Shown here: piece by piece, positions 37,352-63,320 of the stretch
Position numbering within the stretch: position 1 is the first letter of the stretch
How the letters are laid out: the number at the start of each line of letters is the position of its first letter
NCBI RefSeq assembly: GCF_020515625.1
Contig: NZ_JAIWPJ010000002.1
Coordinates: 496,001-560,000, forward strand
Source: Natrinema amylolyticum
GTDB taxonomy: Archaea > Halobacteriota > Halobacteria > Halobacteriales > Natrialbaceae
DNA length: 64,000 bases
Direction: 5' to 3'
Position numbers and translations under genes: made by a program
The notes under the pieces: generated by a model
What the model was told of the DNA's origin: nothing
What the model saw: only the letters and a program-made list of their open reading frames with translations
Databases searched by the model: none

Positions 37352-37374
37352 TCTAATAACTCCATAGTAATTGG
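37352..37374 (+). promoter_or_regulatory. Glycan-locus promoter element, site 1 (phosphohexomutase)
   Basis: CTA at 37353 followed 11 bases later by ATAGTAA (37364-37370). The gene start at 37397 is 33 bases from the first A of the second box, consistent with a leaderless message. Confidence 0.6.
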
Positions 37375-37396
37375 TTCGCTATCAGATTCTGTCACT

Positions 37397-38734
37397 ATGT
37401 TTGTCACGAACGAGATCAGCAGGACGGGCGGTGCCGACGTCACGGCTGCACGTGCGCTCTCGATCGGACGCGCCATCGCGTCCGACGGCTCCGATCGCGT
37501 CGTCGTCGGGCGCGACGCTCGAGAGAGCGTGCCGATACTGGTCGATGCGGTAATCGCCGGCCTTCGAGAGTGCGGCGCGGACGTTCTCGAGGCCGGCGTC
37601 GCACCGACGCCGACGATCGCGAGAGCGGTCTTACGGACGGACGCGAACGCGGGGATCGCCGTCACGGCGTCTCACGATCCCAAACCGGACGACGGGATCA
37701 AACTCCTGTCGTGGACCGGGAAGGCGTTCAGTCCCGAGCACCGCGATGCGATCGCCGCTCGAGTCGACCGCGACGAGTACGATCTGCAACCCAGAGACGG
37801 CAGGGGCTCGGTCGAGTCGATGGGGGACGCGATCGATCGACACGCGACGGAGCTGGTCGAGGCCGTCTCGATAGCCGATCCGCCGAGCGTCGCCGTCGAC
37901 GTCGGGAACGGCACCGGCGGGATCACGGCACGCGTGCTCTCGGAACTCGGCTGCGACGTGATCACGCTGACCGGGCAGCGAGACTGGGACTTTCCGGGGC
38001 GGCCGAGCGAGCCGATTCGAGAGACGCTCGGAGAGCTCTCGTCGCTCGTCGGAGCGACGGACGCGCGGCTCGGGATCGCTCACGACGGCGACGCCGACCG
38101 GATGCTGGCCGTCGACGAGACGGGGACCGTCGTCCCGAGAGACGTGCTTCTCGCCCTGTTCGCGCGCGAAACTGCGACCGACGGCGACATCGTCGCCGCG
38201 CCGGTCGGGACGAGCATGGCCGTCGACGATGCGCTCGCAGCCGTCGGCGCGACGGTGAGTCGAACGCGGGTCGGCGACACCTTCGTGGCCGACTGTACGA
38301 CGTGGCCGGACGTCGTCTTCGGCGGCGACCCGAGCGGTGCATGGATCTGGCCGGACGAGACGCCGTGTCCCGACGGGCCGCTCGCCGCGTGCAAACTCGT
38401 CGAACTCGTCGCCGATCGCGGACCGCTGTCGTCGCTCGTCGAGGACGTCGAGACGTATCCGATTCGCCGCGCGTCGGTCGCGGTCGAGGAGAAAACCGCC
38501 GTGATGGATCAGGTTCGCGAGTGCGCCCGCGAGCGGTACGACGACGTCGATACGCTCGACGGCGTCTATATCGACGTCGACGACGGATGGATCCTCCTGC
38601 GTGCGAGCGACACCGAACCGGTCGTCCGTCTCACGGCCGAAGCGCGAGACGAATTTCGAGCCGAACGGCTGGAGGCCGACGCCGTCGGGCTCCTCGAGAC
38701 CGCGATCGCGACGGTGTCTGGAATTCGACCGTGA
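37397..38734 (+). CDS. Phosphoglucomutase/phosphomannomutase family protein
   Basis: 445 residues from ATG 37397, which agrees with the promoter; the frame extends upstream to 37280 without conserved content. Alpha-D-phosphohexomutase with four domains: the N-terminal FVTNEISRTGG, VVVGRDARES, the phosphoserine loop TASHDPKPDDGIK (Asp where many enzymes have Asn), the metal loop AHDGDADRM, the sugar loop GGDPSGAWIW, and the C-terminal phosphate site RASDTEPVVRLTAEA. It isomerises glucose/mannose or glucosamine 1- and 6-phosphates, feeding sugar-nucleotide synthesis; the exact sugar cannot be read. It starts the glycan locus. Confidence 0.9.
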   Translation: MFVTNEISRTGGADVTAARALSIGRAIASDGSDRVVVGRDARESVPILVDAVIAGLRECGADVLEAGVAPTPTIARAVLRTDANAGIAVTASHDPKPDDGIKLLSWTGKAFSPEHRDAIAARVDRDEYDLQPRDGRGSVESMGDAIDRHATELVEAVSIADPPSVAVDVGNGTGGITARVLSELGCDVITLTGQRDWDFPGRPSEPIRETLGELSSLVGATDARLGIAHDGDADRMLAVDETGTVVPRDVLLALFARETATDGDIVAAPVGTSMAVDDALAAVGATVSRTRVGDTFVADCTTWPDVVFGGDPSGAWIWPDETPCPDGPLAACKLVELVADRGPLSSLVEDVETYPIRRASVAVEEKTAVMDQVRECARERYDDVDTLDGVYIDVDDGWILLRASDTEPVVRLTAEARDEFRAERLEADAVGLLETAIATVSGIRP

Positions 38735-38866
38735 CCGATGGACTAACGACCCGACCACTCGATTCGACTCGAATCCGAGCAATCAAATCGGTCAGTCCCA
38801 CCGTTTCGGGCCCGCGGATTCGTCGTCCCCGGATCTGTCAAATTGTGGTCTAGAGGGACCAATGAT

Positions 38867-38890
38867 GGCTTTAACGGAGAGATAATGAAG
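38867..38890 (+). promoter_or_regulatory. Glycan-locus promoter element, site 2 (phosphodiesterase)
   Basis: TTA at 38871 and ATAATGA at 38882, 11 bases apart. A GTG at 38921, 39 bases downstream, opens a short leader frame; the main gene begins 122 bases downstream. Confidence 0.55.
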
Positions 38891-38920
38891 TGTTCCGTCT
38901 CCCTCGCTGGCTCTAGATAC

Positions 38921-39007
38921 GTGGTGCAACGAACGACGCCGCTGCCGCGGCACGTCGGCAGCGGTCGAACGGAAACACGAGTTACGAAAGGACAACTACA
39001 ACGATGA
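38921..39007 (+). CDS. Possible 28-residue leader ORF before the phosphodiesterase
   Basis: GTG 38921 opens 28 codons, basic and Arg/Thr-rich (VVQRTTPLPRHVGS...), ending in TGA that overlaps the next ATG as ATGA. The GTG lies at the leaderless distance from promoter site 2. It may couple translation of the phosphodiesterase to a leaderless message. A chance frame is possible. Confidence 0.3.
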   Translation: MVQRTTPLPRHVGSGRTETRVTKGQLQR

Positions 39008-40689
39008 CTCGGACGTTTGGCCGTGACGACGCGACATCGACTGAGAGTACCGAGCGCGAATCGGACGGGCTGGACACGCTCCTCATCGGGATCGATGCGG
39101 GATGTCTACCGGTCTTCGAGCGACTCTTCGAGGAGAACCGGATTCCGACCATCGAGCGGCTCTGTTCGACCGGCGTGACCGCACCGCTCGAGTCACAGAT
39201 TCCGCCGTGGACGCCGAGCGCCTGGCCATCGATCTACACCGGCGTCAACCCCGGCAAACACGGCGTGGTCGGCTTCGTCGGCTACGACGGCTACGACTGG
39301 CACGTGACGAGCAACGACGACGTCCACGAGCATCCGCTGTGGACGCTGTTGGACCGACACGACCGTTCGAGCGTCGTCGTCAACGCACCGGTCACTCACC
39401 CACCGGACGAGTTCGACGGGGCGGTAATACCCGGGTTTCTCGGCCCCGAGGACCCGCCCTGTCACCCCGACGGGCTCCTCGACGACGTCCGCGACGCGAT
39501 CGGGGAGTACCGCGTCTACCCGAACTATACGCGGGACGACGACTCGCTCTCCGATCGCGAGAAGATCGAGGAGTACCGGGAACTCGTCCGGCTGCGCGGC
39601 GAGGCGTTTCGCTACCTCGCCGACGAGTTCGAACCGGATTTCGGCTTCGTCCAGTTCCAGAAGACGGACACGGTCTTTCACGAGTTCAGTGGCGAACGAC
39701 GACACGTCGACAGCGTCTACGAGGCGACCGACGAACAGATCGGAAAGATTCTCGAGGCCTGCGATCCGGACCGCGTCTTCCTGGTGAGCGACCACGGAAT
39801 GGGCGAGTACGAGGGCTACGAGTTCCGGGTCAACGAGTACCTCCGCGACATGGGCTACCTCGAGACGACGACGGGCGGCAAGGGGATGCCGTCGTGGACG
39901 CCGATGCGCAGACGCCTCCGCGAGGGCGAGGAGTACGACACGTGGGAGCCGGGAACGGTCGCACGCGCAGCGTCGGTCGCTGCGCGGTTCGGCGTCACCG
40001 CTCGTCGAATACGAACGGTGCTCGAGCGGGTCGGGCTGGCGGACCTCGCGATCGAGTACGCGCCGAGCGGCGTCTCTCGGACGGCGAACGAACAGGTCGA
40101 CTTCGCCGAATCGGAAGCGTACGTTCGTGCGCGGACCGAACTCGGCGTCCGGATCAATCTCGAGGGACGCGACCCGACGGGCGTCGTTCCGCCCGAGGAG
40201 TACGAGGAGCTCCGCGAGGAACTCATCCGGGCGCTACAGGCCGTCGAGACGCCCGACGGCGAGCCGTTCTTCGAGACGGTCGCGCCCCGCGAGCAGTACT
40301 TCCACGGCGACGAGATCGACGAGACGGTCGACATCGTCACGATTCCCGCCGACTTCGAACACATGCTCTCCGAGCAGTTGGGCGACGGCGACTACTTCGG
40401 TCCGGCCGAACCCTGGAATCACAAGCTCGACGGGGTCTTCGTCGCGGCGGGCGAGGGAATCGACGAGAACGCCGCGCTCGAGCGGGCGCACCTCTTCGAC
40501 GTCGCGCCGACGATCATGGCCGCGATGGGGGTCCCCTACAGCGACCGCATGGACGGCAGCGTCGTTCCAGTCGTCGATTCGGTCGAACCGATGTCCTACC
40601 CGGCGTACGAACAGGGAGACGACGAGATCCGACCGGCGACGGACGAGGACGTCACCGATCGACTGGCCGATCTCGGGTACATGAACTGA
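39004..40689 (+). CDS. Type I phosphodiesterase/nucleotide pyrophosphatase family protein
   Basis: 561 residues, alkaline phosphatase superfamily, no signal peptide. Metal- and nucleophile-site segments: LLIGIDAGCLPVFERL (metal Asp), PPWTPSAWPSIYTGVNPGKHGVVGF (nucleophile Ser/Thr), FVQFQKTDTVFHEF, VFLVSDHGMGEYEGYEFRVN (Asp-His), and PWNHKLDGVFVAAGEGI with the last His. Homologues occur in haloarchaeal and bacterial glycan clusters, where they may act on nucleotide sugars or polyprenyl phosphates. The substrate here is not determined. Confidence 0.88.
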   Translation: MTRTFGRDDATSTESTERESDGLDTLLIGIDAGCLPVFERLFEENRIPTIERLCSTGVTAPLESQIPPWTPSAWPSIYTGVNPGKHGVVGFVGYDGYDWHVTSNDDVHEHPLWTLLDRHDRSSVVVNAPVTHPPDEFDGAVIPGFLGPEDPPCHPDGLLDDVRDAIGEYRVYPNYTRDDDSLSDREKIEEYRELVRLRGEAFRYLADEFEPDFGFVQFQKTDTVFHEFSGERRHVDSVYEATDEQIGKILEACDPDRVFLVSDHGMGEYEGYEFRVNEYLRDMGYLETTTGGKGMPSWTPMRRRLREGEEYDTWEPGTVARAASVAARFGVTARRIRTVLERVGLADLAIEYAPSGVSRTANEQVDFAESEAYVRARTELGVRINLEGRDPTGVVPPEEYEELREELIRALQAVETPDGEPFFETVAPREQYFHGDEIDETVDIVTIPADFEHMLSEQLGDGDYFGPAEPWNHKLDGVFVAAGEGIDENAALERAHLFDVAPTIMAAMGVPYSDRMDGSVVPVVDSVEPMSYPAYEQGDDEIRPATDEDVTDRLADLGYMN

Positions 40690-40733
40690 ACCGTCGAATC
40701 GCGGGGTCCGGTCGGTTCGCGCCGTCGCAACTC

Positions 40734-40757
40734 GCTTATTCGCGCTATAAGTATGGG
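40734..40757 (+). promoter_or_regulatory. Glycan-locus promoter element, site 3 (HTH regulator)
   Basis: GCTTATTCG with TTA at 40736, then ATAAGTA at 40747 (11 bases). The regulator's ATG is 50 bases beyond the second box, slightly further than at other sites. Confidence 0.55.
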
Positions 40758-40796
40758 CCGCCGGTTCCGACGACGGGGTACGACATCGATATCGCA

Positions 40797-43470: not shown

Positions 43471-43496
43471 CCGTTTAACGCCCGTATAATAACGCC
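43471..43496 (+). promoter_or_regulatory. Glycan-locus promoter element, site 4 (flippase)
   Basis: CGTTTAACG with TTA at 43475, then ATAATAA at 43486 (11 bases). A GTG at 43522, 36 bases further, opens a leader frame coupled to the flippase. Confidence 0.6.
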
Positions 43497-43521: not shown

Positions 43522-43602
43522 GTGAGTACGTCGGATCGCGACCGATCGTCGGCGAACGGGGCTGTCGATCGTCGGCTCGAACGTTCAAGGGTGAAACCGT
43601 GA
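43522..43602 (+). CDS. Possible 26-residue leader ORF before the flippase
   Basis: GTG 43522 lies 36 bases from ATAATAA of promoter site 4, the leaderless position. The 26 codons are Ser/Arg/Asp-rich (VSTSDRDRSSANGAVDRR...) and end in TGA overlapping the flippase GTG as GTGA. No motif. Its likely role, if real, is translational coupling. Confidence 0.35.
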   Translation: MSTSDRDRSSANGAVDRRLERSRVKP

Positions 43603-45221
43603 ACAGAAGTATCGCGAGCGGCGTCGTCTCGGTCGTCAGTGCGAAAGTCGTCGTTCTCGTCGTCACTGCGCTCTCGACGCCGCTACTCTACCGGTTTCTC
43701 GGCGCATCGGCGTTCGGCGAGTACGCGTTTCTGCTGTCTCTCTTCGCGATTTACATGATCTTCGTCAGTTCCGGGGTCACCGACGGGGTCCGGAAATTCC
43801 TCGCGGAGGACCGCGCCGCGGCGAACTGGAGCGAACACGTCGTCGGCTTCTACTTCCGGCTGGCGGTCCTCCTCTCGGTCCTCGGAGCCTGCCTGCTGGT
43901 CATCGCGACCAGATTCGGGATCGTCGCCCTCGCGTTCGGACCCGAGCTGACGACGTATTTCTACGTCCTCGCCGCGCTCGTGATTTCGGCGCAGTTTCGC
44001 GATTACGCGCGGAAGACGCTCATGGGATTCGGCCTCGAGCGGTACTCGGAACCGCTCAAGGTTCTCGACAAGCTCGGCTTCGTCGCGGTCGCGATTCCGC
44101 TGACTTACGTCGGCCTCGGTGTGATGGGGGCGCTGGCGGGTCACCTGTTCGCGAGCGTCCTCGTCGCCGCGGTCGGGCTCCTCCTCGTCCACCGACGGAT
44201 TCCGCTGTCATGCGCGTTCACTCGCCCGTCGACGCGGTTTCCTCGGAGAGAGATGCTCACGTTCAACTCGATGAGTATCGCGCTGATCTTCCTGCTGATG
44301 TCGCTCTATCACATCGACATCGTGATGCTCCACCGGTTCCGGACGGACGCGGCAGTCGGTAACTATCGAGCGGCGCTGACGCTCGCCGAGTTCCTCTGGT
44401 TCGTTCCGATGGCGATTCAGACGGTCTTCGTTCACTCGACGTCGGAGCTGTGGTCACAGAACCGCTACCGGAAGATTTCGGCGCTCGCCTCGCGGACGAC
44501 GCGTTACACGTTTCTGCTGACGGCCGTGATGGCGGTCGGACTCGCGGCGCTGGCGGACGTCGCCGTTCCGATCTACTTCGGTGCCGAGGCCGAGCCGGCG
44601 ATCACGCCCCTGTTGCTGTTGCTCCCCGGCGCGCTCGGATTCGCCCTCGCGCGACCGATTCTCGCGGTGTCACAGGGAGAAGGGACGCTCCGGTATCCGG
44701 TCGTGGCCACCGGCGGCGCAGCGCTGATCAACCTGGTACTCAACGTCGCCCTTATTCCGCGCTACGGGATGCAGGGTGCGGCCGTCGCGACCAGCATCGG
44801 ATACGGGTCGATGTTCGTCTGCCACTGCTGGAGCGCTCGACTCGTCGGCTTCGATCCGCTCGCGGACGCGCGACTCGGCCGCGCAGTCCTGACGACCGTC
44901 CTCGCGGCCGTTCCGATCGTCGCCCTCTCGACGGCGATCGCGAACCCGTGGCTCGCGCTCGTAGTCGTCCCGCCCGTCGGATTCGCGATCTTCGTCGCGT
45001 TCGCGCTCCTCGTCGGCGCACTGGATCCGGCCGAACCGTTCGAGGTACTGTCAGCGTTTCCGGACCCGATCGGGTCGACCGCGGACGCGATCGCCGGTCG
45101 AATCGCGGCCGGCGGGAGCGACGGTGCGACTCGTAACTGGTTGCAGATCCTCCTGTTCGTCGTCGGACTGTCCCTGCTCGTCTCGGGGCTCGCATTGGGC
45201 GTCCTCGATCCCGGCGTGTGA
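43599..45221 (+). CDS. Polysaccharide flippase (Wzx/MATE-like)
   Basis: 540 residues starting at GTG 43599, 12-14 membrane spans, of the oligosaccharide-flippase superfamily. LLYRFLGASAFGEYAFLLSLFAIYMIFVSSGVTDGVRKF at the N-terminus is typical (compare LGxxxFGxYA). Later come LFLLMSLYHIDIVMLHRF, VGNYRAALTLAEFLWFVPMAIQTVF and NLVLNVALIPRYGMQGAAVATSIGY. It should move lipid-linked glycans across the membrane, as AglR-type proteins are proposed to do in haloarchaeal N-glycosylation. The last 90 residues hold two extra spans and a soluble loop. Confidence 0.88.
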   Translation: MNRSIASGVVSVVSAKVVVLVVTALSTPLLYRFLGASAFGEYAFLLSLFAIYMIFVSSGVTDGVRKFLAEDRAAANWSEHVVGFYFRLAVLLSVLGACLLVIATRFGIVALAFGPELTTYFYVLAALVISAQFRDYARKTLMGFGLERYSEPLKVLDKLGFVAVAIPLTYVGLGVMGALAGHLFASVLVAAVGLLLVHRRIPLSCAFTRPSTRFPRREMLTFNSMSIALIFLLMSLYHIDIVMLHRFRTDAAVGNYRAALTLAEFLWFVPMAIQTVFVHSTSELWSQNRYRKISALASRTTRYTFLLTAVMAVGLAALADVAVPIYFGAEAEPAITPLLLLLPGALGFALARPILAVSQGEGTLRYPVVATGGAALINLVLNVALIPRYGMQGAAVATSIGYGSMFVCHCWSARLVGFDPLADARLGRAVLTTVLAAVPIVALSTAIANPWLALVVVPPVGFAIFVAFALLVGALDPAEPFEVLSAFPDPIGSTADAIAGRIAAGGSDGATRNWLQILLFVVGLSLLVSGLALGVLDPGV

Positions 45222-45429: not shown

Positions 45430-46488
45430 CTATCGCACCTGGGTCTCGAGCGGTTCGCTCTCCGCCATGTCGAACACCATCGCGAGCAGGAGGAACGCGG
45501 TTCCGGCGACGAACAGCAGCAGGCTCGTCGCGCTCCGGACGGCCGGAACGTCCCCGCTCGAGAGCGCGGAAACCAGCGCCGTCCCTCCGCCGAGAACGGC
45601 GGTCGCGGCCGTCGCGGCGCCGAACAGGTAGAGCAGTGCGAGCGGGTGGAAGTCGAGCACGAGGTACTTGGTCTGCAGTCGCCACAGGAAGTTACGCAAC
45701 AACATCTGCGACACCTTCGGAACGTATCGCGAGTACGTGATGCTCGACTCCTCCTCGCCGTAGACTGCCGGCATCGCCACGTCGGCGACGCGCATCCCGC
45801 GGACGTTCAGCTTGACCAGCAGGTCGTTGCAGTAGCCGTAATACTCGTAGAGGGCCGGCACGTCGATCGCCGCGAGCGCGTCGTGCGAGATCGCCGTGTA
45901 CCCGTTCTGGGGATCCATCGTCTTCCAGTAGCCGGACGCGATCTTCGTCAGAAACGTCAGGGTCGCGTTGCCAACGAACCGAAACCGCGGCATGGCGGCT
46001 CGGTACTCCCGGGACAGGAGCCGGTTCCCCTTCGTATAATCGGCCTCGTCCTCCACGATCGGATCGAGGAGCCGCTGCATCTGGGAAAGATCCATCTGGC
46101 CGTCCGCGTCGACGGTGACCGTCGCGTCCACCTCGTCCGCGAGCGCGGCGAGATAGCCGGTCTTGATCGCACCGCCGGCGCCGCGGTTCTCGCGGTGCTC
46201 GATCGGGACGACCCGACCGATGGCGTCGCGGACCGTCGCCCGACTCGTCAGTGCGGACGCACCACCGTCGGCCGCGAGCCGTTCGACGGTCTCGCCGGCA
46301 CGGTCCTCGTTCTCGCTCGCGTCCGCCCGCGCGGCCTCGAGGATCTCGTCCAGGGTGCCGTCCGTCGATCGGTCGTCGATCGCGTAGATCCGATCGACGT
46401 ACGCGGGCATCCCCCGGATCACGTCGCCGACGAACCCTTCCTCGTTGTAGGCGGGTATCACGACGCCGACGCTCGCGCCCCGGTACAT
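45430..46488 (-). CDS. GT2 glycosyltransferase with C-terminal membrane spans (DPM1-like)
   Basis: 352 residues. GVVIPAYNEEGFVGDVI, AIDDRSTDGTLDEI and VTVDADGQMDLSQM (DxD-like Asp) form the GT-A domain; NRGAGGAIKTGY and GYWKTMDPQNGYTAISHDAL are typical of dolichyl-phosphate sugar transferases. An acidic insertion of about 35 residues (ASENEDRAGETVERLAADGG region) splits the usual NTD part. Two membrane spans lie near residues 270-345. It probably transfers a hexose from a nucleotide sugar to dolichol phosphate. The ATG overlaps the stop of the small upstream ORF. Confidence 0.88.
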   Translation of the reverse strand: MYRGASVGVVIPAYNEEGFVGDVIRGMPAYVDRIYAIDDRSTDGTLDEILEAARADASENEDRAGETVERLAADGGASALTSRATVRDAIGRVVPIEHRENRGAGGAIKTGYLAALADEVDATVTVDADGQMDLSQMQRLLDPIVEDEADYTKGNRLLSREYRAAMPRFRFVGNATLTFLTKIASGYWKTMDPQNGYTAISHDALAAIDVPALYEYYGYCNDLLVKLNVRGMRVADVAMPAVYGEEESSITYSRYVPKVSQMLLRNFLWRLQTKYLVLDFHPLALLYLFGAATAATAVLGGGTALVSALSSGDVPAVRSATSLLLFVAGTAFLLLAMVFDMAESEPLETQVR

Positions 46489-46776: not shown

Positions 46777-46798
46777 CTTTCTTATACGGGCGTTAGTG
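46777..46798 (-). promoter_or_regulatory. Glycan-locus promoter element, site 5 (GT2, minus strand)
   Basis: On the minus strand, CTAACG then ATAAGAA 11 bases on. It shares the 11-base stretch TAACGCCCGTA with site 4. The first downstream ATG (46751) is 34 bases away. Confidence 0.6.
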
Positions 46799-46880: not shown

Positions 46881-46906
46881 GCGCTTATCCGGGCGATAAT
46901 AATCCC
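46881..46906 (+). promoter_or_regulatory. Glycan-locus promoter element, site 6 (GT2, plus strand)
   Basis: GCTTATCCG then ATAATAA at 46896, offset 11. The gene's ATG is 34 bases downstream, a leaderless arrangement. Sites 5 and 6 are back to back and 82 bases apart, serving divergent glycosyltransferases. Confidence 0.65.
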
Positions 46907-46929: not shown

Positions 46930-47904
46930 ATGACTCGCGTCAGCGTCATCATCCCGACGTACAACAGAGCGGCGACGCTTCCGAGCGCGATCGACAGCGC
47001 GCTCGAGCAGACGGTCGACGACCTCGAGGTGGTCGTGGTCGACGACGGTTCGACCGACGACACCGAGTCGGTGCTGGCCGCCTACGAGGACCCGCGGGTT
47101 CGACCGGTCGTCCACGCGACCAATCGCGGCGCGAACGTCGCTCGGAACACGGGACTCGAGCACGCGCACGGTGAGTACGTCGCCTTCCTCGACTCCGACG
47201 ACGAGTGGCATCCCGAGAAACTCGAGCGCCAGTTCGCGGTCCTCGAGGACCGCTCGAGCGACTGGGTCGGTGCCTACTGCGATTCGGCGTACGACCTGTC
47301 CGGACCGACCGGCCGGCTCCGGTCGGCCGCCGCGGCCGTCCTCGCTCGAGGGGGCGACGAGCCGACGCGGGAAGGGAACGAGGAGCTGGTCGGCGAGATC
47401 CTCGCGGACAACGTCCAGCCGGGAGCCGGCTCGACGTTGCTCGTCCGGACCGAGGTCGCCAGGGAGGCCGGCGGTTTCGACGAGGACCTCGACCGGTTCC
47501 AAGATCCGGAGTTCTGCCTGCGCGTGCTCGAACGCGGGAAACTCGCCTACGTCGACGAGGTGCTCGTCCGCCGCGAGGACACCGGTCATCCGTCGGCGGC
47601 CGTCGTCGCGAACGCGAGCGAACAGTACCGCTCGGCGTACGAGGACGAGATCGATCGTTTCGAGGAGGAGGGATACGAGATCCGCTCGAGCCACGAACTC
47701 GTCGTCGCGAAGCGGTACTTCGCGGAGGGACGGTTCCTCCGCGGCGCGTGGCACTTCCGCAAGGCCGCGGTATCGCCGCGAGCGTACCCCGGCGTCGGCT
47801 GGGTCGCCGCTGCCGGCGTTCGACGGCGGCCGCGTCCGATCGTCGCGACGCTCGTCGTTCTGTTCGTCGCGGCGACGCTCGGTCGGCGCGCACTCTCCCG
47901 GTGA
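46930..47904 (+). CDS. GT2 family glycosyltransferase
   Basis: 324 residues. VSVIIPTYNRAATLPSAIDSALEQTV, VVDDGSTDDTESVL, NRGANVARNTGLEHAHGEYVAFLDSDDEWHPEKLE (with the DxD) and later FDEDLDRFQDPEFCLRVLERG define a GT-A inverting enzyme of the EpsS/Rhamnosyl-transferase-like group. The C-terminal 25 residues are hydrophobic (PIVATLVVLFVAATLG), probably a membrane tether. It should add a sugar to the lipid-linked glycan on the cytoplasmic side; donor unknown. Confidence 0.9.
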   Translation: MTRVSVIIPTYNRAATLPSAIDSALEQTVDDLEVVVVDDGSTDDTESVLAAYEDPRVRPVVHATNRGANVARNTGLEHAHGEYVAFLDSDDEWHPEKLERQFAVLEDRSSDWVGAYCDSAYDLSGPTGRLRSAAAAVLARGGDEPTREGNEELVGEILADNVQPGAGSTLLVRTEVAREAGGFDEDLDRFQDPEFCLRVLERGKLAYVDEVLVRREDTGHPSAAVVANASEQYRSAYEDEIDRFEEEGYEIRSSHELVVAKRYFAEGRFLRGAWHFRKAAVSPRAYPGVGWVAAAGVRRRPRPIVATLVVLFVAATLGRRALSR

Positions 47905-48004: not shown

Positions 48005-48027
48005 GGTTATCGTACCTGTAGTAAAAT
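48005..48027 (+). promoter_or_regulatory. Glycan-locus promoter element, site 7 (M14-like protein)
   Basis: GGTTATCG with TTA at 48007, then GTAGTAA at 48018 (offset 11; G replaces the usual first A). ATG 48053 is 35 bases away. Confidence 0.5.
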
Positions 48028-50798: not shown

Positions 50799-50822
50799 CC
50801 ATTATTATAGATCAGATAGGCC
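50799..50822 (-). promoter_or_regulatory. Glycan-locus promoter element, site 8 (deacetylase)
   Basis: On the minus strand GGCCTATCTG, then ATAATAA 11 bases after CTA. ATG 50770 is 38 bases downstream, supporting that start. Confidence 0.6.
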
Positions 50823-50864: not shown

Positions 50865-50888
50865 GGCTTAACGGTAGTATAGTAATTG
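50865..50888 (+). promoter_or_regulatory. Glycan-locus promoter element, site 9 (asparagine-synthase-like gene)
   Basis: GGCTTAACG then ATAGTAA at 50879, offset 11. The gene begins 117 bases downstream. A GTG at 50904 opens a 31-codon frame ending in TGA that overlaps the main ATG as ATGA, but it is only 25 bases from the box, so it is less convincing than other leaders. Confidence 0.55.
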
Positions 50889-54350: not shown

Positions 54351-54374
54351 GGCTTATCTCGGCGATAATAAACC
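54351..54374 (+). promoter_or_regulatory. Glycan-locus promoter element, site 10 (DUF1616 gene)
   Basis: GGCTTATCTCGG with TTA at 54354, then ATAATAA at 54365, offset 11. ATG 54400 is 35 bases downstream, which sets the start of the gene. Confidence 0.65.
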
Positions 54375-54399: not shown

Positions 54400-55389
54400 A
54401 TGAGCGACACTCACTGGTGGTTTTTCGATCTGGCAGTCGTCATCGCAGTCACCGGCGCCCTCACGTTCGGCATTATTTCAGGGTCGAGCGGGTCTGTGAG
54501 AATCGTGCTGACAATTCCGCTCGTTCTCTTCCTTCCTGGGTATACGCTGGTCTCGGCCCTCTTTCCGGACGAGCCAAACGACGACTATCGGACCTTCGAC
54601 GACGAGAAAACTGGACTCGGCAGTCCGTTACTAGTCAGCGGTGGTCTCGAGGCGGTCGAACGAATGGTCCTGTCAGTCGTATTTAGCGTTGCGATCGTAC
54701 CCGCGATAACCCTTTTCGCGACCATAACCCCAGGGGGAGTGACGCTCGAACCGGTACTCTCCGGACTGGCAGTTGTCACCGTCGTCCTCGCCCTCCTCGC
54801 GATCGGTTCTCGATACCGCTGTCCGCCCGATCGGCGGTTCACACCCTCGATATCGTCGGTCTCACCGTTCTTTACTCGAGTTCGTCCGAGTCCGTACGAG
54901 CGAATCAGTTACCGACCGTACAACGTAGCTATCGGGATCGGGCTGCTCCTATTGCTCGCGAGCGGTGGCTTTGCTCTCGCGAACCCGCCACAGCACGACG
55001 GGTTCACGGAACTGTCGATCGGATCAGAAAACGTCACCGGAGAGACGGAAACGACGTACGAGTCGACCTATACCGCGGGGGAACGTCAGGAACTGCAAGC
55101 GACGATCACGAACCGGGAGCACGAAGAGCGGACTTACACGACCGTGGTCCTACTCCAGCGGGTGAGCGACGACGGTTCCAACGTGACCGTCCGCGAATCG
55201 ACGGAGGTGGACAGAAAGACGGCGACGGTTCCCGATGGCGGTACGCACCGCCAGAGCCTCGAGATCACGCCGACGATGCGGGGGGACGACCTCCGGTTGA
55301 CGCTGCTGCTGTACGAGGGTGAACCGCCGGCGGAGCCGACGACCGACAACGCCTATCGCGTCGCCCGGCTTCCGATCGAGGTGGCATAG
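54400..55389 (+). CDS. DUF1616 membrane protein
   Basis: 329 residues from ATG 54400 rather than 54217. Four spans in the first 170 residues (DLAVVIAVTGALTFGII, VLTIPLVLFLPGYTLVSALFP with the DUF1616 PGY motif, MVLSVVFSVAIVPAITLF, VVTVVLALLAIG), one more near residue 185-205, then an external beta-rich domain (SENVTGETETTYESTYTAGERQELQATITN, LLQRVSDDGSNVTV) of the CARDB/Ig-like type. DUF1616 proteins cluster with archaeal glycan and S-layer genes; no biochemical role is established. Adjacent to the next gene (TAG-ATG). Confidence 0.88.
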   Translation: MSDTHWWFFDLAVVIAVTGALTFGIISGSSGSVRIVLTIPLVLFLPGYTLVSALFPDEPNDDYRTFDDEKTGLGSPLLVSGGLEAVERMVLSVVFSVAIVPAITLFATITPGGVTLEPVLSGLAVVTVVLALLAIGSRYRCPPDRRFTPSISSVSPFFTRVRPSPYERISYRPYNVAIGIGLLLLLASGGFALANPPQHDGFTELSIGSENVTGETETTYESTYTAGERQELQATITNREHEERTYTTVVLLQRVSDDGSNVTVRESTEVDRKTATVPDGGTHRQSLEITPTMRGDDLRLTLLLYEGEPPAEPTTDNAYRVARLPIEVA

Positions 55390-56406: not shown

Positions 56407-58383
56407 TCAGTTACTTGTCGGAGAGGCCGTACACATCGTCACGTCCCCGTTCGTGTAGACCGTGGCCTGCTCCGGCCGACAGAGTTGCTCTCGAGAGAGC
56501 TGTGCGATCCGTGCGTTCCCGTCGGCGTCCGTGACGTACGTCGCGTCGGTCGATTGTTCCGATCGATAGACCGTATAGTTGTGCGCCGCGATGCCGTCCT
56601 CGGGAACCGTCGCGGTCGTCGTCGACGGATACGCGCCGGTCCGACTGAACAGCGTCTGATACGGGTGGTCGGTGTGGAGTTGCTGATCGGGGCGGATCTC
56701 GTCTCCCTGCGGCGACCCGGTCAGCTCGCCGATCGACTCGGCCGCGGCGAGCTCCGATTCGTCGTACGCGAGGCGCTCGTGCTGGTTCGAGAAGACCGGA
56801 TTGTCGGCGTTGCTCTCGGCGGCGAGGACCATCGCGCCCGGATAGACGAGCACGACGACGAGCAACACGGAGGCGATCAGTGCCGGCGTCATGTTCCCTC
56901 TCAGCGCCCGTACGCCGATCGCACCGAGGACTGCCATCGGTGCGTAGAGGAACGCGAACCAGCGCGTCGGGATGAAGTTCCGGATGCCGAACATCGGCAG
57001 TCCGAGGACGAACACCAGCATGAAGGCTGCCGCCAGCAAGAGGGTGAACACCGACTGTTCGGCGCGTCGCCTGTGGACGACGTACAGACAGCCGACGAAC
57101 GTGACACCGAGCAGGAGCAGGAATCCGAGGTTGTCCACGTAGGGAACGAGCTGTTCGATCAGCGAGGGCGCGGCCTCGGCCCCCGCTTCGGCCCCGTCGG
57201 ACGAGTCGCCCGCGGTATTGAGGAATCCGGCGCTCTCCTCGAGCGTCTGGGTGAAGTAACTCAGGACCGTCGCCAGGAACGAGTCCTGACGATACGGTGT
57301 CAGCGACCACACGAAAATCGTCAGTCCGAGGTTGAAGACGACCAGTCCGACGAGGTTGACCGGTTTTTTCGTCCGGAAGACGCTCGTGTCGAGCCGCGTG
57401 AGCCCGAGCGGACCGATCACGAACACGATCTGAGCGAGAAACGCTGCGAGCAACAGGACGAGCATGATGAACGTCGACACCTGATGGGTGAGGATAACGG
57501 CGACGCTCGACAACACGAGGAGCGAGAAGTCCCGGATCGTGTACTCGATCCGCATCACTCGGATCAACGCGTACAACATCGCGAGGAAGAAGATCAGCCC
57601 CAGGCTCGTGGGGATGAGGTGCATTCCCCATCTCGCGACGTGGCTCGCGAAGGCGTAGAACGCCGTCGCCAGCACTGCCCACCGCGGCGAGACGAGCAAG
57701 TTCGTGGTCGCGTAGACGAGCAGGGCCGCGAGGGGCATCACGAGTCCCACGGAGAGATACAACGCGGCACGAATCGGGACGTCGTACAGCAGCGACGAAG
57801 CGGCGACCAGCAGGTGGTAAAACGGCGACCCGTAGTGTTTGTCGTGGGAAATCGCGCTCAGGGACTGCTCCGTGAGGATCGCATCGATGAATCCGCGGTG
57901 TGTCCAGATGTCGATCCCGATGAACCCCGGTGTCGCGTACAGCGCGGTGAACCGGAAGACGAACGCGAAGCAGACGATCTGGAGGAGCAGCAAGCCGGGA
58001 TGGAGGTCGCGATCGCTCGCGAAGACGATCTGGCCGATGACGAGCGTCCCGACGACGCTCGCCAGCCCGAAGAAGAGCCGCGTTCGCGCCCCCTGAACGA
58101 CCGTCAGCAGTACGAGCCCCGCGAGTCCGACCAGGACGACGCTCGGGAGCGCCATCGACACCGCCGACGGAAGGGTCGGGAAGGCCCGCGAGTCGTCCCG
58201 CTGATACAGGGAGAGGAGATACAACGCACACGCGGTGCCGAGGATCACCGGCACGGTATTGAGGTAAATCTGCGACGTGAGAAATCGCAGCGGAAACAGC
58301 ACCGCAGCGAGCAGGAAGCCGCAGATCGCCGCGACGGTGTCGAGTCGCAGCGGTCGCAGTTCCGACAGCGATCTATACTTCAT
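56407..58383 (-). CDS. Multi-span membrane protein, probable GT39/ArnT-like glycosyltransferase
   Basis: 658 residues from ATG 58383. About 13-14 spans occupy residues 15-520. The first long external loop has GFIGIDIWTHRGFIDAIL with acidic residues near a membrane edge, then HDKHYGSPFYHLLVAAS, which resembles GT-C enzymes of the dolichyl-phosphate mannosyltransferase class. RTRWFAFLY-like (PTRWFAFLYAPMAVL) follows, then an external C-terminal domain of about 130 residues (ESNADNPVFSNQHERLAYDESELAAAESIGELTG). It probably moves a sugar from dolichol phosphate to a glycan outside. Last gene of the four-gene operon, overlapping the GT4 stop by 11 bases. Confidence 0.75.
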   Translation of the reverse strand: MKYRSLSELRPLRLDTVAAICGFLLAAVLFPLRFLTSQIYLNTVPVILGTACALYLLSLYQRDDSRAFPTLPSAVSMALPSVVLVGLAGLVLLTVVQGARTRLFFGLASVVGTLVIGQIVFASDRDLHPGLLLLQIVCFAFVFRFTALYATPGFIGIDIWTHRGFIDAILTEQSLSAISHDKHYGSPFYHLLVAASSLLYDVPIRAALYLSVGLVMPLAALLVYATTNLLVSPRWAVLATAFYAFASHVARWGMHLIPTSLGLIFFLAMLYALIRVMRIEYTIRDFSLLVLSSVAVILTHQVSTFIMLVLLLAAFLAQIVFVIGPLGLTRLDTSVFRTKKPVNLVGLVVFNLGLTIFVWSLTPYRQDSFLATVLSYFTQTLEESAGFLNTAGDSSDGAEAGAEAAPSLIEQLVPYVDNLGFLLLLGVTFVGCLYVVHRRRAEQSVFTLLLAAAFMLVFVLGLPMFGIRNFIPTRWFAFLYAPMAVLGAIGVRALRGNMTPALIASVLLVVVLVYPGAMVLAAESNADNPVFSNQHERLAYDESELAAAESIGELTGSPQGDEIRPDQQLHTDHPYQTLFSRTGAYPSTTTATVPEDGIAAHNYTVYRSEQSTDATYVTDADGNARIAQLSREQLCRPEQATVYTNGDVTMCTASPTSN

Positions 58384-59335
58384 GGCTGACCCCCGTCGGA
58401 CGGCACAGCTCTCCGTCCCGGTCCAATAATCGGCGGTACAGTCCGTGGAGGCGCTCTCCGAGGGACTCGACGGAGAGCCCGTCGATCGAATCGCGACCGT
58501 CGGATCGTCCGCCGTCTTCGACGGCCCGCTCAAGCCCGCCGAGGAGCGCCCCGTCGTTGTCGCTGACGACGCAGTTCGTCACGCCGCGGACCGTCTCGCG
58601 GACGAATCCGACGTCCGTCGAGACGACCGGCAGGTTACACGCGGCGGCCTCCTTGACGACCATCGGGCCGCTCTCGCGTTTCGACGTGACAAGCAGGACG
58701 TCGCTCGCGTTCATGTAGTAGGGCATCACCTCGTGAGCGACGCCGGAGACCGTCCGGAGTTCGAGGTCGGCGTCCGCGTGCTCGACGAGCCGGCGTGCCC
58801 GCGAAAAGTCCTTCACCGATCGAGTTCGGTCGTACGGGAAGAGCGCGACCGGTCGATCGGTCTCCCATCCAATCTGCTCGCGCGCGTGCGCTCGAGACAT
58901 CGGCCGAAACAGCTCGGTGTCGACACCGAACGGAATCAGTCGGTGCTCGGCCTCGAGTTCGCGCGACATGGCCCGACTCGGAACGATCGCGGCGTCCGAC
59001 CGGCGGGCGCTGTGGCGACTGATCGATCGGAGCCACGACTGCCGGCTCATGAGATCGGTTCCCCACAGCGTCACGACGACCGGTCGCGTCGGCTGAGCGA
59101 GCGCGAAGGGGGCGACGAGCCCGTAGTTCGCGTGCACCAGATCGTACGACGTCGACTGGACCGCCGAGAGGAGTTTCGGGTAGAGTCGGGCGTAATCGAC
59201 TGCTGACCGGCCCGAATCCCCGCTGTGTTCGCCGGGGACTTCGAGGACCGTACAGTCGACGCCACGGTCCTCGAGGGCGGACACCTGCTGATCGAAAAAC
59301 GGCCGCGGCGACGTGACCAGTTGGAGTACCTTCAT
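58373..59335 (-). CDS. GT4 family glycosyltransferase
   Basis: 320 residues, a GT-B fold. MKVLQLVTSPRPFFDQQVSAL and YDLVHANYGLVAPFAL form the N-terminal acceptor domain. RLIPFGVDTELFRPM, ASDVLLVTSKRESGPMVVKEAAACNLPVVSTDVGFVRE is the donor site with the Glu-x7-Glu of GT4 (ESGPMVVKE). It is shorter than the usual 360-400 residues. The ATG overlaps the DUF354 stop (TGATG). It adds a sugar from a nucleotide donor to the growing glycan; linkage unknown. Confidence 0.9.
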   Translation of the reverse strand: MKVLQLVTSPRPFFDQQVSALEDRGVDCTVLEVPGEHSGDSGRSAVDYARLYPKLLSAVQSTSYDLVHANYGLVAPFALAQPTRPVVVTLWGTDLMSRQSWLRSISRHSARRSDAAIVPSRAMSRELEAEHRLIPFGVDTELFRPMSRAHAREQIGWETDRPVALFPYDRTRSVKDFSRARRLVEHADADLELRTVSGVAHEVMPYYMNASDVLLVTSKRESGPMVVKEAAACNLPVVSTDVGFVRETVRGVTNCVVSDNDGALLGGLERAVEDGGRSDGRDSIDGLSVESLGERLHGLYRRLLDRDGELCRPTGVSHEV

Positions 59336-60405
59336 CAGTGGCCTGTATCGGCTGCGGGAGTCGATCGTCCCGCGGTACGCGTCTGCGCGAGCGTCTCGAT
59401 CCGTCGGACGACGTAGTCCGTGACGTCGATCCGGTCGGCGAGCAGGCGCTCGCGACGGCGCTCCCACGTGTCGGCGGATTCGTCGACGACCGAGACGGCC
59501 CGCTCGAGCCCGTGCGCGTGTCTCGCATCGCCGTCGTACTCGAACAACAGGCCGTACTCCTCCTCGAGTTCCGTCGTGTAGCCGAGCGAAAGGGGGTTCA
59601 CGTAGACCGCGGGCGTGCCGAGCATGGCGGCTTCCGCCGCGGTCGTCGCCCCCTCGCTCAGCACGACGTCGGCGTACGCGAGCAGGTCGTGCATCCGGTC
59701 CGGCGACGTCTCGAATCGATACGATTCGAGGGCGGCCGGCGGCTCTCCTTCCGCCGTCAGTAGGACCCGGACGCCCGCATCCTCGAGTCGCTCGACGACC
59801 GCTCGGGGGTCGTCGAAGCCGCCGTGACCGACGTCGTGGGAGGCGTCCCAGCTGCTGAGTCGGACGACGGCGAACGATTCCTCGGGGGCGAGCCCGACGT
59901 CCTCGCGTACCGTCGGGTCGGGGTCGAACCGCTCGGGATGGAGATAGGCGAGTTCGTGATAGCCCGGGTACGTCACCTGTTTCGGGCCGATATCGTCCCG
60001 ATAACACGCCGGTGTGGCGATCACGTCCGCGAACGGATAGCCGAGTTTCGTGATGAGAGTCGCGTGTTCGGTGTCGTAGAAGACGAGACTCTTCGTACGC
60101 ACCATCGACGCGACGTGGGCGGCAGCGACGCCGCCGATCGCCGTGATCACGTCCGGATCGATCCGCCGCGCTCGCTGCAGCAGTCGCAGCTCGTACGTCG
60201 CCTGAACCGCCGCCAGCGAGACCAGCGAGTCGGATTCGCCGGCCAACACCTCGTGGTCGATGTCGTACGCTTCGAGGAGCCGGACGGCGACGTCGCTCTC
60301 GCGAGCGAAGACGTGGACGTCGTGGCCTCGCGCTTCCAGTTCCGCGATCGGATTCCGGAAGAAGTGGACGTGGCCGGGATGCTGGATCGTTATCATCACG
60401 CGCAT
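59335..60405 (-). CDS. DUF354 GT-B fold protein
   Basis: 356 residues. It starts MRVMITIQHPGHVHFFRNPIAELEARGHDVHVFARE, the DUF354 signature, and continues IDPDVITAIGGVAAAHVASM, YDTEHATLITKLGYPFADVI, and DVVLSEGATTAAEAAMLGTPAVYVN with the nucleotide-binding Ser-Glu-Gly. The fold is related to UDP-GlcNAc 2-epimerase and MurG. It is found in archaeal glycan clusters; whether it is an epimerase or a transferase is not known. The 117-base gap to the upstream dehydrogenase is the largest in the operon. Confidence 0.85.
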   Translation of the reverse strand: MRVMITIQHPGHVHFFRNPIAELEARGHDVHVFARESDVAVRLLEAYDIDHEVLAGESDSLVSLAAVQATYELRLLQRARRIDPDVITAIGGVAAAHVASMVRTKSLVFYDTEHATLITKLGYPFADVIATPACYRDDIGPKQVTYPGYHELAYLHPERFDPDPTVREDVGLAPEESFAVVRLSSWDASHDVGHGGFDDPRAVVERLEDAGVRVLLTAEGEPPAALESYRFETSPDRMHDLLAYADVVLSEGATTAAEAAMLGTPAVYVNPLSLGYTTELEEEYGLLFEYDGDARHAHGLERAVSVVDESADTWERRRERLLADRIDVTDYVVRRIETLAQTRTAGRSTPAADTGH

Positions 60406-60522
60406 CGTCAGTCCACCTCCGCGATCGGCCGGCGGCTCGAGACGGTGATCGCTGTCGGCGGCGTTCGACTCCGCGTCCGGACGATCGGTCCGTCGAAGAC
60501 GTGACGCTGGTCTCGCATCGCT

Positions 60523-61926
60523 TCACAACCTCCGGTAGGCGAGTCCCGCGTCGGCGGCGGCGTCTTCGTCGACCGCGCCGGTCACGTCGATCAGTGCGGG
60601 ATCGTCGGCGAGTTCGCTCGCCACTGCCTCGAGGTCCAGTTGTTCGAACTCCTCGTGGGGCGTCGCGAGCATGACGGCGTCGAACCCCTCGAACGAGAGT
60701 CGGTCCTGAACCTCGATGCCGAACGACTCTCGGGCCGCATCGTCGTCCGCGAACGGGTCGAACCCCTCGACGTCGATGTCGTACTCCCGGAGTTCGTCGA
60801 TGACGTTGCCGATCTTCGAGCTTCGAATGTCCCCGACGCCCGGTTTGTACGCCAGTCCCAACACCAGGACGCGACTCTCGCGGAGCGTCTTGTGACACTG
60901 GTTGAGCGCCTTGATCGTCAGCTCGGCGACGTGGTCGGGCACCGACTCGTTGACCTGCCGGCTCGTTTGCATGAGTTCGGGGTCGAACCCTTCTCGGGCC
61001 GATCGGTACGCGAAGAAGTACGGATCGACGGGAATGCAATGGCCGCCGACCAGCCCCGGCCGGTAGTCGTGGAAGTTCCACTTCGTGCCCGCGGCCTCGA
61101 GGACGGCCTGTCCGTCGACGTCCATGTTGTCGAGCGCCATCGAGAGCTCGTTGACGAACGCGATGTTGAGGTCCCGCTGGGCGTTCTCGACGACCTTGCA
61201 GGCTTCGGCGACCTCGATCGACGGGGCGCGGTGGACGCCCGCGTCGACGATCGACTCGTACAGCGTCGCCACGTCCTCGAGTACCCGCTCGTTCTGTGCG
61301 CTGACGACTTTGACGACGTCCTCGAGGCCGTGTTCCTCGTCGCCCGGCGTGGCGCGTTCCGGAGAGTAGCCGACGAAGAAGTCCGTGCCGGCGGTCAGTC
61401 CGGACGCGTCTTCGAGTGCCGGCACGAGCGTCTCGCGCGTCGTGCCCGGGTAGACCGTCGACTCGAGGACGACCGTCGTTCCGGGGTCCATCTTCGAGCC
61501 GACGGTGGTCGCCGCGCTCTCGACGTAGCCGAGGTCCGGCCGATCGTCGTCGTCGATCGGCGTGGGAACGGCGATAATGACGTAGTCGGCCGCACCGATC
61601 TCGGTCGCGTCGGTCGTATACGAGATGTCACCGTCCTGGATCGCGTCGTCGGAGAGGTCACCGGTCGTGTCGACGCCGTCCTGGAGTCGACCCACCGTCA
61701 CGTCGTCGACGTCGTATCCGATGACGCGGTAGTTCGACTGGGCGAACCCGACTGCGAGCGGGAGCCCGACGTACCCCAGTCCGACGACACAGATCGTCGC
61801 CGCACGCGTCGACTGTGCGTTCGAGTGCTCGAGGGCGGTCCCGCCGCGGCCGCTCGATTTTCGTGCGTGCTGGTCGCTCTCCCGATCGTCTGCTCGCGTC
61901 TCCGTGTCGCTGATTATCGTGGTCAT
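60523..61926 (-). CDS. Nucleotide-sugar (UDP-GlcNAc/ManNAc-type) 6-dehydrogenase
   Basis: 467 residues from ATG 61926, with about 45 non-conserved residues before ATICVVGLGYVGLPLAVGFAQ, the NAD Rossmann motif. Further segments: DYVIIAVPTPIDDDDRPDL, VVLESTVYPGTTRETLVP, FVGYSPERATPGDEEH, EVAEACKVVENAQRDLNIAFVNELS, GHCIPVDPYFFAY with the catalytic Cys (about residue 302), and VLGLAYKPGVGDIRSSK. The PERATPG and NAQRDLNIA versions suit the WecC branch, giving a uronic acid such as UDP-ManNAcA. First gene of the glycan operon. Confidence 0.9.
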   Translation of the reverse strand: MTTIISDTETRADDRESDQHARKSSGRGGTALEHSNAQSTRAATICVVGLGYVGLPLAVGFAQSNYRVIGYDVDDVTVGRLQDGVDTTGDLSDDAIQDGDISYTTDATEIGAADYVIIAVPTPIDDDDRPDLGYVESAATTVGSKMDPGTTVVLESTVYPGTTRETLVPALEDASGLTAGTDFFVGYSPERATPGDEEHGLEDVVKVVSAQNERVLEDVATLYESIVDAGVHRAPSIEVAEACKVVENAQRDLNIAFVNELSMALDNMDVDGQAVLEAAGTKWNFHDYRPGLVGGHCIPVDPYFFAYRSAREGFDPELMQTSRQVNESVPDHVAELTIKALNQCHKTLRESRVLVLGLAYKPGVGDIRSSKIGNVIDELREYDIDVEGFDPFADDDAARESFGIEVQDRLSFEGFDAVMLATPHEEFEQLDLEAVASELADDPALIDVTGAVDEDAAADAGLAYRRL

Positions 61927-62035
61927 GGGTGGTGCGTTGTCGCTGACCGTCGCACGACCGCGTGCGACGGTGACTCCGGAATCGGTGCACCCGCGAGCCG
62001 CGGGGCGTTCCGTGGAATCGACGAGTCGGTTGCGG

Positions 62036-62060
62036 GGGTTTACTATACCTCGAATAAACC
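62036..62060 (-). promoter_or_regulatory. Glycan-locus promoter element, site 11 (dehydrogenase operon)
   Basis: On the minus strand GGTTTATTCGAG then ATAGTAA, offset 11; the outer GGTTTA and TAAACC also form an inverted repeat. The first gene starts 120 bases downstream, so the message has a leader of about 90 bases without an obvious small frame. Confidence 0.55.
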
Positions 62061-62278
62061 GATGCGGGAGCGACAACGAGCGGACACCGGCGGTCGGGAC
62101 CGCTACTGACGGATTTGGCGGGTCGGGAGTCGGTCGTCCGAGTGAGCGCTTAGAACGTTGTTAAATCACCTGTACTGCTCTATAATGAAGGGGGCGCGGG
62201 TCGGATATCCGATGCGGTCGGCGAGGTCAAGACGCTCGTGACTCGGTCTCGCACCGACCGCAATCAGAACCGCGAATC

Positions 62279-62926
62279 ATGGTGTCCACGCCCCAGATCG
62301 GAGTCAGAGCACGGTTCGAATCGATTCGTAGCACCGTCTCGATCGACACGGTTCCGGCTTCGATACAGCGGTACGACGTCCACGCGATCGCATCGGGACC
62401 GGCCGTTCCACAGATTGGCGACCGGTCCGGTGGATCGTTGTCAGGGGTACAACTGCTTCGAGTGACGTCGTTCTGGGAATCGGCCCTGATCGCGGTTCTC
62501 TTCCTGTTGATCAGCGGCCTCATCGGTCTCCGCATGGCCGACGTGCTATCGGACCGTGATATCGACGTTTCGTCGTTCCCGCTGGTGACGGACACGGCAG
62601 GCGACGGAGATGGCTCGGATCACGCACGAACGAGCGACCGTGGAGCATACGAGTCGTATCTCTCGCCAGAAACGCCGCCACGGCTCCTGAGCGACGAAGG
62701 AAAGGTAGTCCGGCTCCTCGTCGCGAATCACGGCCAGATTCGTCAGCATCGACTCACCGAAGAGACCGGTTGGTCGAAGTCGAAGGTGAGCCGGATCTGC
62801 TCGCAGATGCACGATGACGGCACGATCGAGAAGCGATCGGTCGGCCGAGAGAACGTCATCACACTGGCCGATCGAACGTCGAGCCGAGAGACGGAGTCGG
62901 ACGAAGTCGATACCCCCCTGCCGTAG
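62279..62926 (+). CDS. Membrane-anchored winged-helix regulator
   Basis: 215 residues. An N-terminal external or cytoplasmic part of about 60 residues with no motif is followed by one span (SALIAVLFLLISGLIGLRMADVL, about residues 69-88). Residues about 137-200 are a winged helix: LLSDEGKVVRLLVANHGQIRQHRLTEETGWSKSKVSRICSQMHDDGTIEKRSVGRENVITLA, a pattern common in haloarchaeal membrane-bound MarR/IclR-like regulators. It sits between divergent promoter site 11 and glmS. It could relay cell-surface state to the locus (inference). Confidence 0.82.
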   Translation: MVSTPQIGVRARFESIRSTVSIDTVPASIQRYDVHAIASGPAVPQIGDRSGGSLSGVQLLRVTSFWESALIAVLFLLISGLIGLRMADVLSDRDIDVSSFPLVTDTAGDGDGSDHARTSDRGAYESYLSPETPPRLLSDEGKVVRLLVANHGQIRQHRLTEETGWSKSKVSRICSQMHDDGTIEKRSVGRENVITLADRTSSRETESDEVDTPLP

Positions 62927-63298
62927 GCGCGTACCGGACCCTGTCTTCACCCGCAGTCACACCCCACCCCGTTTTCAGCCACCAGTCGCTCGTTCGAGGG
63001 CGATCCGACTGCCGTCCGCGACGACCCCTGTTCCGACGTCCCGTCTCGAACTCGAGACTGTCCCGGAGTGATCGTTCGAACCCGAAAGAGAGCGGAGCGG
63101 TCACGGCATCCGGCAGGTTCGTCTCGACGCGATACAATCGGTCGTTGCCGAACGAACGAGGTCCCGTTCCGAGAGCCGGAATCGAACGACCGCCCGAGTA
63201 TGTCGGGATCGCAACCCGTGTGAGACGGAAATAGACGGTTTCGAGGATCGAACGCGGAATTATACGGCCGATAGATCCCGTCGTATGCGCCGTACCGA
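62927..63298. other. Spacer before glmS promoter, no gene seen
   Basis: About 370 bases after the winged-helix gene. Minus-strand frames are open but have low-complexity Arg/Ser-rich products typical of antisense shadows. No strong hairpin or repeat stands out. Confidence 0.45.
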
Positions 63299-63320
63299 GT
63301 TATTCGTGCTATAGTAATGG
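63299..63320 (+). promoter_or_regulatory. Glycan-locus promoter element, site 12 (glmS)
   Basis: GTTATTCG with TTA at 63300, then ATAGTAA at 63311, offset 11. It closely matches sites 3 and 11 (TTATTCG followed by CTATA or GTATA). glmS itself begins 223 bases downstream, so there is a long leader. Confidence 0.6.

Follow-up and report, generated by a model that had tools for sequence, protein, structure and literature searches.

A fixed-spacing two-part promoter element and its candidate BAT-HTH_10 regulator in a glycan locus of Natrinema amylolyticum

The analysed stretch of DNA, 64,000 nucleotides of the Natrinema amylolyticum genome (contig NZ_JAIWPJ010000002.1, positions 496,001 to 560,000) and referred to as the window, carries a 26 kb glycan locus with genes for a phosphohexomutase, a flippase, glycosyltransferases and further proteins, together with the gene of a BAT-HTH_10 regulator (Table 1). 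Twelve promoters of this locus share a composite element that consists of an upstream box (box 1) and a downstream box (box 2), and the genes that it precedes are very likely a co-controlled set that had not been described before. An earlier note on this DNA had listed the twelve sites with a constant offset on both strands, and direct reading verified all of them: box 2 begins exactly 11 bases after the start of box 1 in 12/12 sites, which leaves a gap of 6 bases between the boxes. All twelve sites are intergenic. Box 1 reads YTAWY throughout, as had been described. Box 2 matches ATARTAA or differs from it at one or two positions; the earlier wording of a one-base variant does not cover the site at 40736, where ATAAGTA departs at two.

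Searches with the pattern YTAWY-N6-ATARTAA at up to two mismatches yielded 20 matches in the window against 2.4 expected, and eight of only 12 exact matches in the 4.71 Mb genome fell within the glycan locus. With one mismatch, 59 matches were obtained genome-wide compared with 61 for the backwards pattern; there is thus no general excess of the element in the genome, despite the 11 of the 59 that lie in the locus. A thirteenth site is located just past the window (C2:565047), and an exact match at C2:901729 was discounted as a promoter of the same set, as it lies only 16 bases from the start of an acyl-CoA dehydrogenase gene. Pattern counts of this kind are not independent because the pattern was derived from the sites themselves, and the fair tests of the element are leave-one-out matrix scores, spacing controls and conservation in other species. 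Leave-one-out scores of the twelve sites ranged from 9.8 to 26.9, and the three lowest-scoring sites, at 37353 (9.8), 46796 (12.8) and 48007 (13.6), are all conserved in relatives. The matrix built from the twelve sites gave 12 matches above 18 in the glycan locus and a best score of at most 17.1 elsewhere in the window, and no match was obtained at a cut-off of either 15 or 18 in 365 kb of controls, which comprised unrelated stretches and the loci of other HTH_10 proteins. For the spacing control, a 25-column matrix with a cut-off of 18 was applied to 18 relatives while the offset was changed by -4 to +4 bases. This yielded 180 matches at offset 11 and 0-4 at the altered offsets, except for 39 at +1; 37 of these 39 are explained by a slip of one base at sites already found at offset 11. 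A related site on the reverse strand at 35171-35188 (TTGTC-N6-ATAGTAT) is kept in several relatives and is directed into a stretch without a called gene. A comparison of positions 36500-64000 with Rfam gave no match.

Table 1. Composite elements and genes of the glycan locus (positions in the window)
Feature	Positions	Strand	Sequence or remarks
Element, phosphohexomutase promoter	37353-37370	+	CTAAT-N6-ATAGTAA; conserved in relatives
Element, phosphodiesterase promoter	38871-38888	+	TTAAC-N6-ATAATGA
Element, BAT-HTH_10 regulator gene's own promoter	40736-40753	+	TTATT-N6-ATAAGTA
Element, flippase promoter	43475-43492	+	TTAAC-N6-ATAATAA
Element, toward glycosyltransferase gene 45430-46488	46779-46796	-	CTAAC-N6-ATAAGAA
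Element, glycosyltransferase gene 46930	46885-46902	+	TTATC-N6-ATAATAA
Element, AstE/M14-like-PKD gene	48007-48024	+	TTATC-N6-GTAGTAA
Element, polysaccharide deacetylase gene	50802-50819	-	CTATC-N6-ATAATAA
Element, AsnB-like gene 50996	50868-50885	+	TTAAC-N6-ATAGTAA
Element, DUF1616 gene 54400	54354-54371	+	TTATC-N6-ATAATAA
Element, nucleotide-sugar dehydrogenase/glycosyltransferase operon	62040-62057	-	TTATT-N6-ATAGTAA
Element, glmS-like gene	63300-63317	+	TTATT-N6-ATAGTAA
Phosphohexomutase (PGM/PMM family)	37397-38734	+	Pfam, run on longer open reading frame from 37280
Type I phosphodiesterase	39004-40689	+	
BAT-HTH_10 regulator, 220 amino acids	40797-41459	+	Proposed element binder; Pfam, orthologues, paralogue beside second site set
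Flippase (Polysacc_synt)	43599-45221	+	
Family 2 glycosyltransferase	45430-46488	-	
Family 2 glycosyltransferase	46930-47904	+	
AstE/AspA-type catalytic domain with PKD domain	48053-49264	+	
Polysaccharide deacetylase	49442-50770	-	
AsnB-like protein	50996-52699	+	No Pfam match at 1e-3; SAGYDSR motif in translation
DUF1616 protein	54400-55389	+	
Operon: nucleotide-sugar dehydrogenase, DUF354/GT protein, GT1, unknown protein	56407-61926	-	
Nucleotide-sugar dehydrogenase within operon	60523-61926	-	Named from translation only
glmS-like aminotransferase	63534-64000	+	Runs beyond window end; GATase_6; paralogue starts MCGI

The glycan locus is present in 18 further Natrinema genomes, and the site was kept in 213/230 orthologous promoters (13 promoters in 19 Natrinema genomes). 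Within a given promoter, identity at the box positions amounted to 78-100% (94-100% for most of them) compared with about 55-75% in the upstream flanks. Between promoters, spacers and flanks vary while the boxes do not, and the information content resides in T-T-A-W-Y, followed by a nearly free spacer and T-A-T-A-R-T-A-A-W. The reverse-strand promoter at 46779-46796 persists in relatives even though the gene downstream is mostly not the orthologue of the glycosyltransferase but another one of similar length. In the six Natrinema genomes that have no orthologue of the regulator, the flippase and the other genes of the locus are missing as well, with relics left in two of them: broken flippase fragments in G001 (C46; L221, L224) and, in G016 (C17; L234), a truncated phosphohexomutase gene that still bears its site. 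These relics suggest that the locus was lost recently.

The position of box 2 was compared with 406 control promoters, whose AT content peaks 26-28 bases before the start codon. Haloarchaeal transcripts are mostly leaderless, and the control peak fits this (PMC4983044). Measured from the start of box 2, the start codon follows after 33 bases for the phosphohexomutase, 34 for the glycosyltransferase at 46930, 35 for the AstE-like and the DUF1616 proteins and 38 for the deacetylase, i.e. after 33-38 bases in 5/12 genes, and after 50 bases for the HTH_10 gene. Several genes appear to have long leaders, with 115-130 bases between site and gene; this was rejected for the phosphodiesterase and the flippase, for which the first start codon belongs to a short open reading frame (mini-ORF) beginning 39 and 36 bases after box 2. 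With these starts included, the start-codon window narrows to 33-39 bases, as had been noted for many of the sites, and box 2 occupies the TATA position. Its earlier description as a variant TATA box is well supported. At the TATA place, ATARTAA was found in 11/406 control promoters, and ten of these 11 turned out to be glmM promoters of a second locus described below, so that the true control frequency is about 1/396.

Mini-ORFs of about 22-50 codons precede the flippase (43522-43601), phosphodiesterase (38921-39006) and glmS (63391-63536) genes and are kept in 18-19/19 Natrinema genomes. In nearly all of the 19 genomes, those of the phosphodiesterase and the flippase begin 35-40 bases downstream of box 2, and their stop codons overlap the main start in most genomes (ATGA or GTGA). 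Likewise, the TGA of the small reading frame upstream of the glmS gene in the window overlaps the glmS ATG in 18/18 cases. At the second locus, a mini-ORF beginning with MVAYR or MSVHR was located 33-34 bases after box 2 of the glmS promoter in the ten genomes examined (L034:14310-14530). This arrangement suggests translational coupling or a leader peptide.

The sequence between the boxes does not resemble a TFB recognition element (BRE). CGAAA was proposed as the haloarchaeal BRE (PMC4983044). The G+C content of the five bases preceding the TATA-like box is 73%, and nothing similar to CGAAA was detected in the spacers of 205/214 sites, with GAA or AAA in only 9/214. The upstream box itself, suggested earlier as a possible BRE, is not one either, given the gap of 6 bases to box 2. 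The outer TTA and TAA ends of the element are complementary in 71-89% of sites and form an imperfect dyad, TTA-N12-TAA.

The regulator encoded in the locus (P0001) matched the Pfam families HTH_10 at its C-terminus (7.7e-20, 70.9 bits, cut-off 23.1) and BAT upstream of the helix-turn-helix (2.1e-10, 41 bits, cut-off 25.8), with an additional match to Sigma70_r4 (3.2e-9); no PAS or GAF domain was matched in Pfam at E 0.001. Its recognition helix reads SDSAVSQRLRRA. The predicted helix-turn-helix resembles sigma region 4 or -35 binding domains and also an archaeal transcription factor (8hno), with Z scores of about 6-7.6, a likeness that is only suggestive for a model whose predicted local distance difference test scores are 54-75 in this part. 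Among 29 relatives of the regulator in this genome, the closest is 42% identical overall and is encoded in a second cluster beside glmS. The recognition helix S[DK]SAVSQRLRRA is common to both proteins, which diverge widely outside the helix-turn-helix. Every one of the 21 Natrinema genomes examined has this paralogue, even those without the glycan locus. Because the paralogue neighbours another group of promoters with the element, the HTH_10 protein of the glycan locus, whose gene is itself preceded by the element, is a strong candidate for the regulator.

In the second cluster (C1:805-811 kb), conserved copies of the element precede the genes for glmM (the second phosphohexomutase, with box 2 located 33 bases from the start), glmS and, as seen in relatives, a GlmU-type nucleotidyltransferase. 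The gene of a small zinc-finger protein in this cluster is probably preceded by the element, too. Two further genes bear conserved copies: a lipoprotein gene, with the element in 12/12 intact orthologues and box 2 lying 36-37 bases upstream of the start codon, and an ATP-grasp gene, whose site is kept with a more variable box 1. Judged from these conserved copies, the element is the mark of a wider putative amino-sugar and surface regulon. The view that it marks the glycan locus proved too narrow. A large PAS/GAF/BAT-HTH_10 sensor-regulator (L034:16452-19694, reverse strand) is encoded immediately next to the short HTH_10 paralogue there and might pass a signal on to it.

The association of regulator and sites was followed into other genera. 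In Natronorubrum, Haloterrigena, Natronolimnohabitans, Natronosalvus and Natrarchaeobius, the regulator has orthologues of 67-94% identity, and 3-8 sites lie within 10 kb of them, with the exception of one truncated locus. More distant homologues in Halostella pelagica (47%) and Haloarcula pellucida (38%) have three and four sites nearby, respectively, and five sites scoring above 15 were found in Halorussus salinisoli, of which one lies 35 bases upstream of the start of a DUF1616 gene. The loci of 15 other HTH_10 proteins contained zero sites. The second-locus regions of Natrialba appear empty only at the matrix cut-off; the lower-scoring variants GTAG(N)7ATAGTAA and TTAA(N)7ATAGTAA are present at the same genes. 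In a phylogenetic tree, one group unites the site-rich homologues of Natrialbaceae, Halostella and Halorussus (94/73 support) and the paralogues of the second locus make up a clade of their own (100/100), with long branches leading to Halorussus.

On balance, we consider it probable that the element is a composite of operator and TATA box that is bound by a subfamily of BAT-HTH_10 proteins and activates surface-glycan and amino-sugar genes; the element itself, its place, its conservation and its pairing with this subfamily were observed, and we infer binding, dimerisation, the sign of regulation and the signal. Box 2 (ATARTAA, often TATARTAA) would be the TATA box and box 1 (TTAWY) the candidate site for the regulator whose gene lies in the locus. 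Through the dyad, a dimer might reach box 1 as well as the downstream margin of box 2. The core promoter would be weak alone owing to the missing BRE and the uncommon TATA sequence, and a regulator bound beside or around the TATA box could aid the assembly of TBP and TFB, with box 1 as the place from which it stands in for a BRE in contacting TFB. The regulator gene itself would then be switched on along with the surface-glycan and amino-sugar genes, and the paralogue with its nearly identical recognition helix would act likewise at the glmM, glmU and glmS genes of the second locus. Activation is most likely, as with Bat at bop, and is the most economical model. A more far-reaching version, in which the BAT-HTH_10 protein is a core-promoter recognition factor that contacts box 1 and the TATA edge and replaces the BRE-TFB contact in a bacterial-like two-box architecture, is considered very doubtful.

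Several observations weigh against activation by the locus-encoded regulator. The symmetry of the dyad is confined to three bases per side, which makes the evidence for a dyad weak, and a dyad that overlaps the TATA box would suit a repressor, too. Homologues with SAVSQR-like helices in Halorientalis, Haloarcula japonica and Haloarcula salina have no sites nearby, and the pairing of regulator and sites is therefore not universal. Presence and absence across Natrinema, tried as a decisive link, is confounded, as the locus is inherited as a block and lost together with its regulator, and cannot by itself connect the two. The link consequently rests on the second locus, the other genera and the negative HTH_10 controls.

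Repression by the same BAT-HTH_10 protein, which would bind TTA-N12-TAA and block TBP until its release allows expression, is rather unlikely. The half-site inside the TATA box and the element at the regulator's own gene would fit such a scheme, and archaeal repressors that cover BRE or TATA are known from a review (PMC6085418). An intrinsically strong promoter held in check would, however, not need the absence of a recognisable BRE and an uncommon TATA sequence, and Bat, the best known member of the family, is an activator (PMC2253796). That a transcription factor encoded elsewhere binds the element, with the HTH_10 genes as mere targets, is decidedly unlikely: co-inheritance could account for regulator and sites sharing loci, but the same pairing recurs at two paralogous loci and in several families, and other HTH_10 neighbourhoods are without sites.

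The earlier note had also proposed that the gene set has either its own activator or its own TBP/TFB pair. A regulon with its own regulator is well supported, and it extends past the glycan locus. A specialised TFB or TBP/TFB pair that reads the two boxes as an alternative core promoter, with the HTH_10 proteins as passengers, is very unlikely. Both boxes and their spacing are specific to the regulon and haloarchaea have many TFB paralogues, but one TBP gene each is present in G002, G006 and G012, which bear the cluster, as it is in G004 and G005, which do not; this excludes a dedicated TBP for at least three cluster-bearing genomes. TFB domain counts, pooled over orthologous groups, are not higher with the cluster, and none of the TFB matches listed lies near the locus. 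Moreover, a BRE directly adjoins the TATA box, in contrast to box 1 with its gap to the TATA-like box, and the recurring HTH_10 neighbour would be left unexplained. Chance resemblance or functionless descent from duplicated promoters, conceivable for short AT-rich boxes, is practically negligible, as spacers and flanks differ between promoters while the boxes stay, and is refuted by the empty 365 kb of controls and the conservation across genera.

The findings amount to a complete regulon that can be tested: a single element at about 18 promoters, a candidate regulator, and a paralogue that has a target set to itself, seen in several haloarchaeal families. This opens HTH_10, a large haloarchaeal regulator family with few known sites, to the prediction of sites from the recognition helix, and offers natural BRE-less promoters for studying how archaeal activators recruit TBP and TFB. 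To our knowledge, few regulators of archaeal surface glycans have been described.

The closest known system is Bat, the HTH_10 activator of bop in Halobacterium (PMC2253796), whose target promoter combines an upstream site (upstream activator sequence, UAS) with an atypical TATA box (PMC1447603). For the bop promoter, a title by Baliga and DasSarma from 2000 reportedly announces the absence of a TFB recognition element. Both systems share a regulator of the GAF/BAT-HTH_10 type, a site at a fixed short distance upstream of a non-consensus TATA box, the lack of a recognisable BRE, and the presence of small zinc-finger genes in the regulator's vicinity (PMC2253796, PMC1447603). Here, the element is TTAWY-N6-ATARTAA, the regulator has a BAT domain without a matched PAS or GAF domain, and its putative targets are glycan and amino-sugar genes with a dozen separate promoters in one locus. 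GvpE of the gvp genes is likewise an activator encoded in the locus it controls, with a two-part site by the core promoter and an essential close distance between UAS and BRE (PMC4390858), but it is leucine-zipper-like instead of HTH_10, and its UAS consists of two 8-base parts with a 4-base gap by a normal BRE-TATA. The Lrp/AsnC-like CsmR of Haloferax uses a semi-palindrome, TATCA-N4-TGATA, beside the TATA box (PMC13286277) and differs in protein family, half-sites, spacing and its motility targets. With the canonical haloarchaeal core promoter (BRE CGAAA, TATA TTWT and WW at -10; PMC4983044), the element shares the place of box 2 at the TATA position, in contrast to its lack of a CGAAA-like BRE and a TATA variant that is rare in control promoters. 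The literature searched contained no paper on this element, on a glycan-linked HTH_10 regulator or on a haloarchaeal glmS regulon. As far as checked, a locus-encoded activator with its site by the TATA box is thus of a known kind, while the composite itself, its targets and its spread are new.

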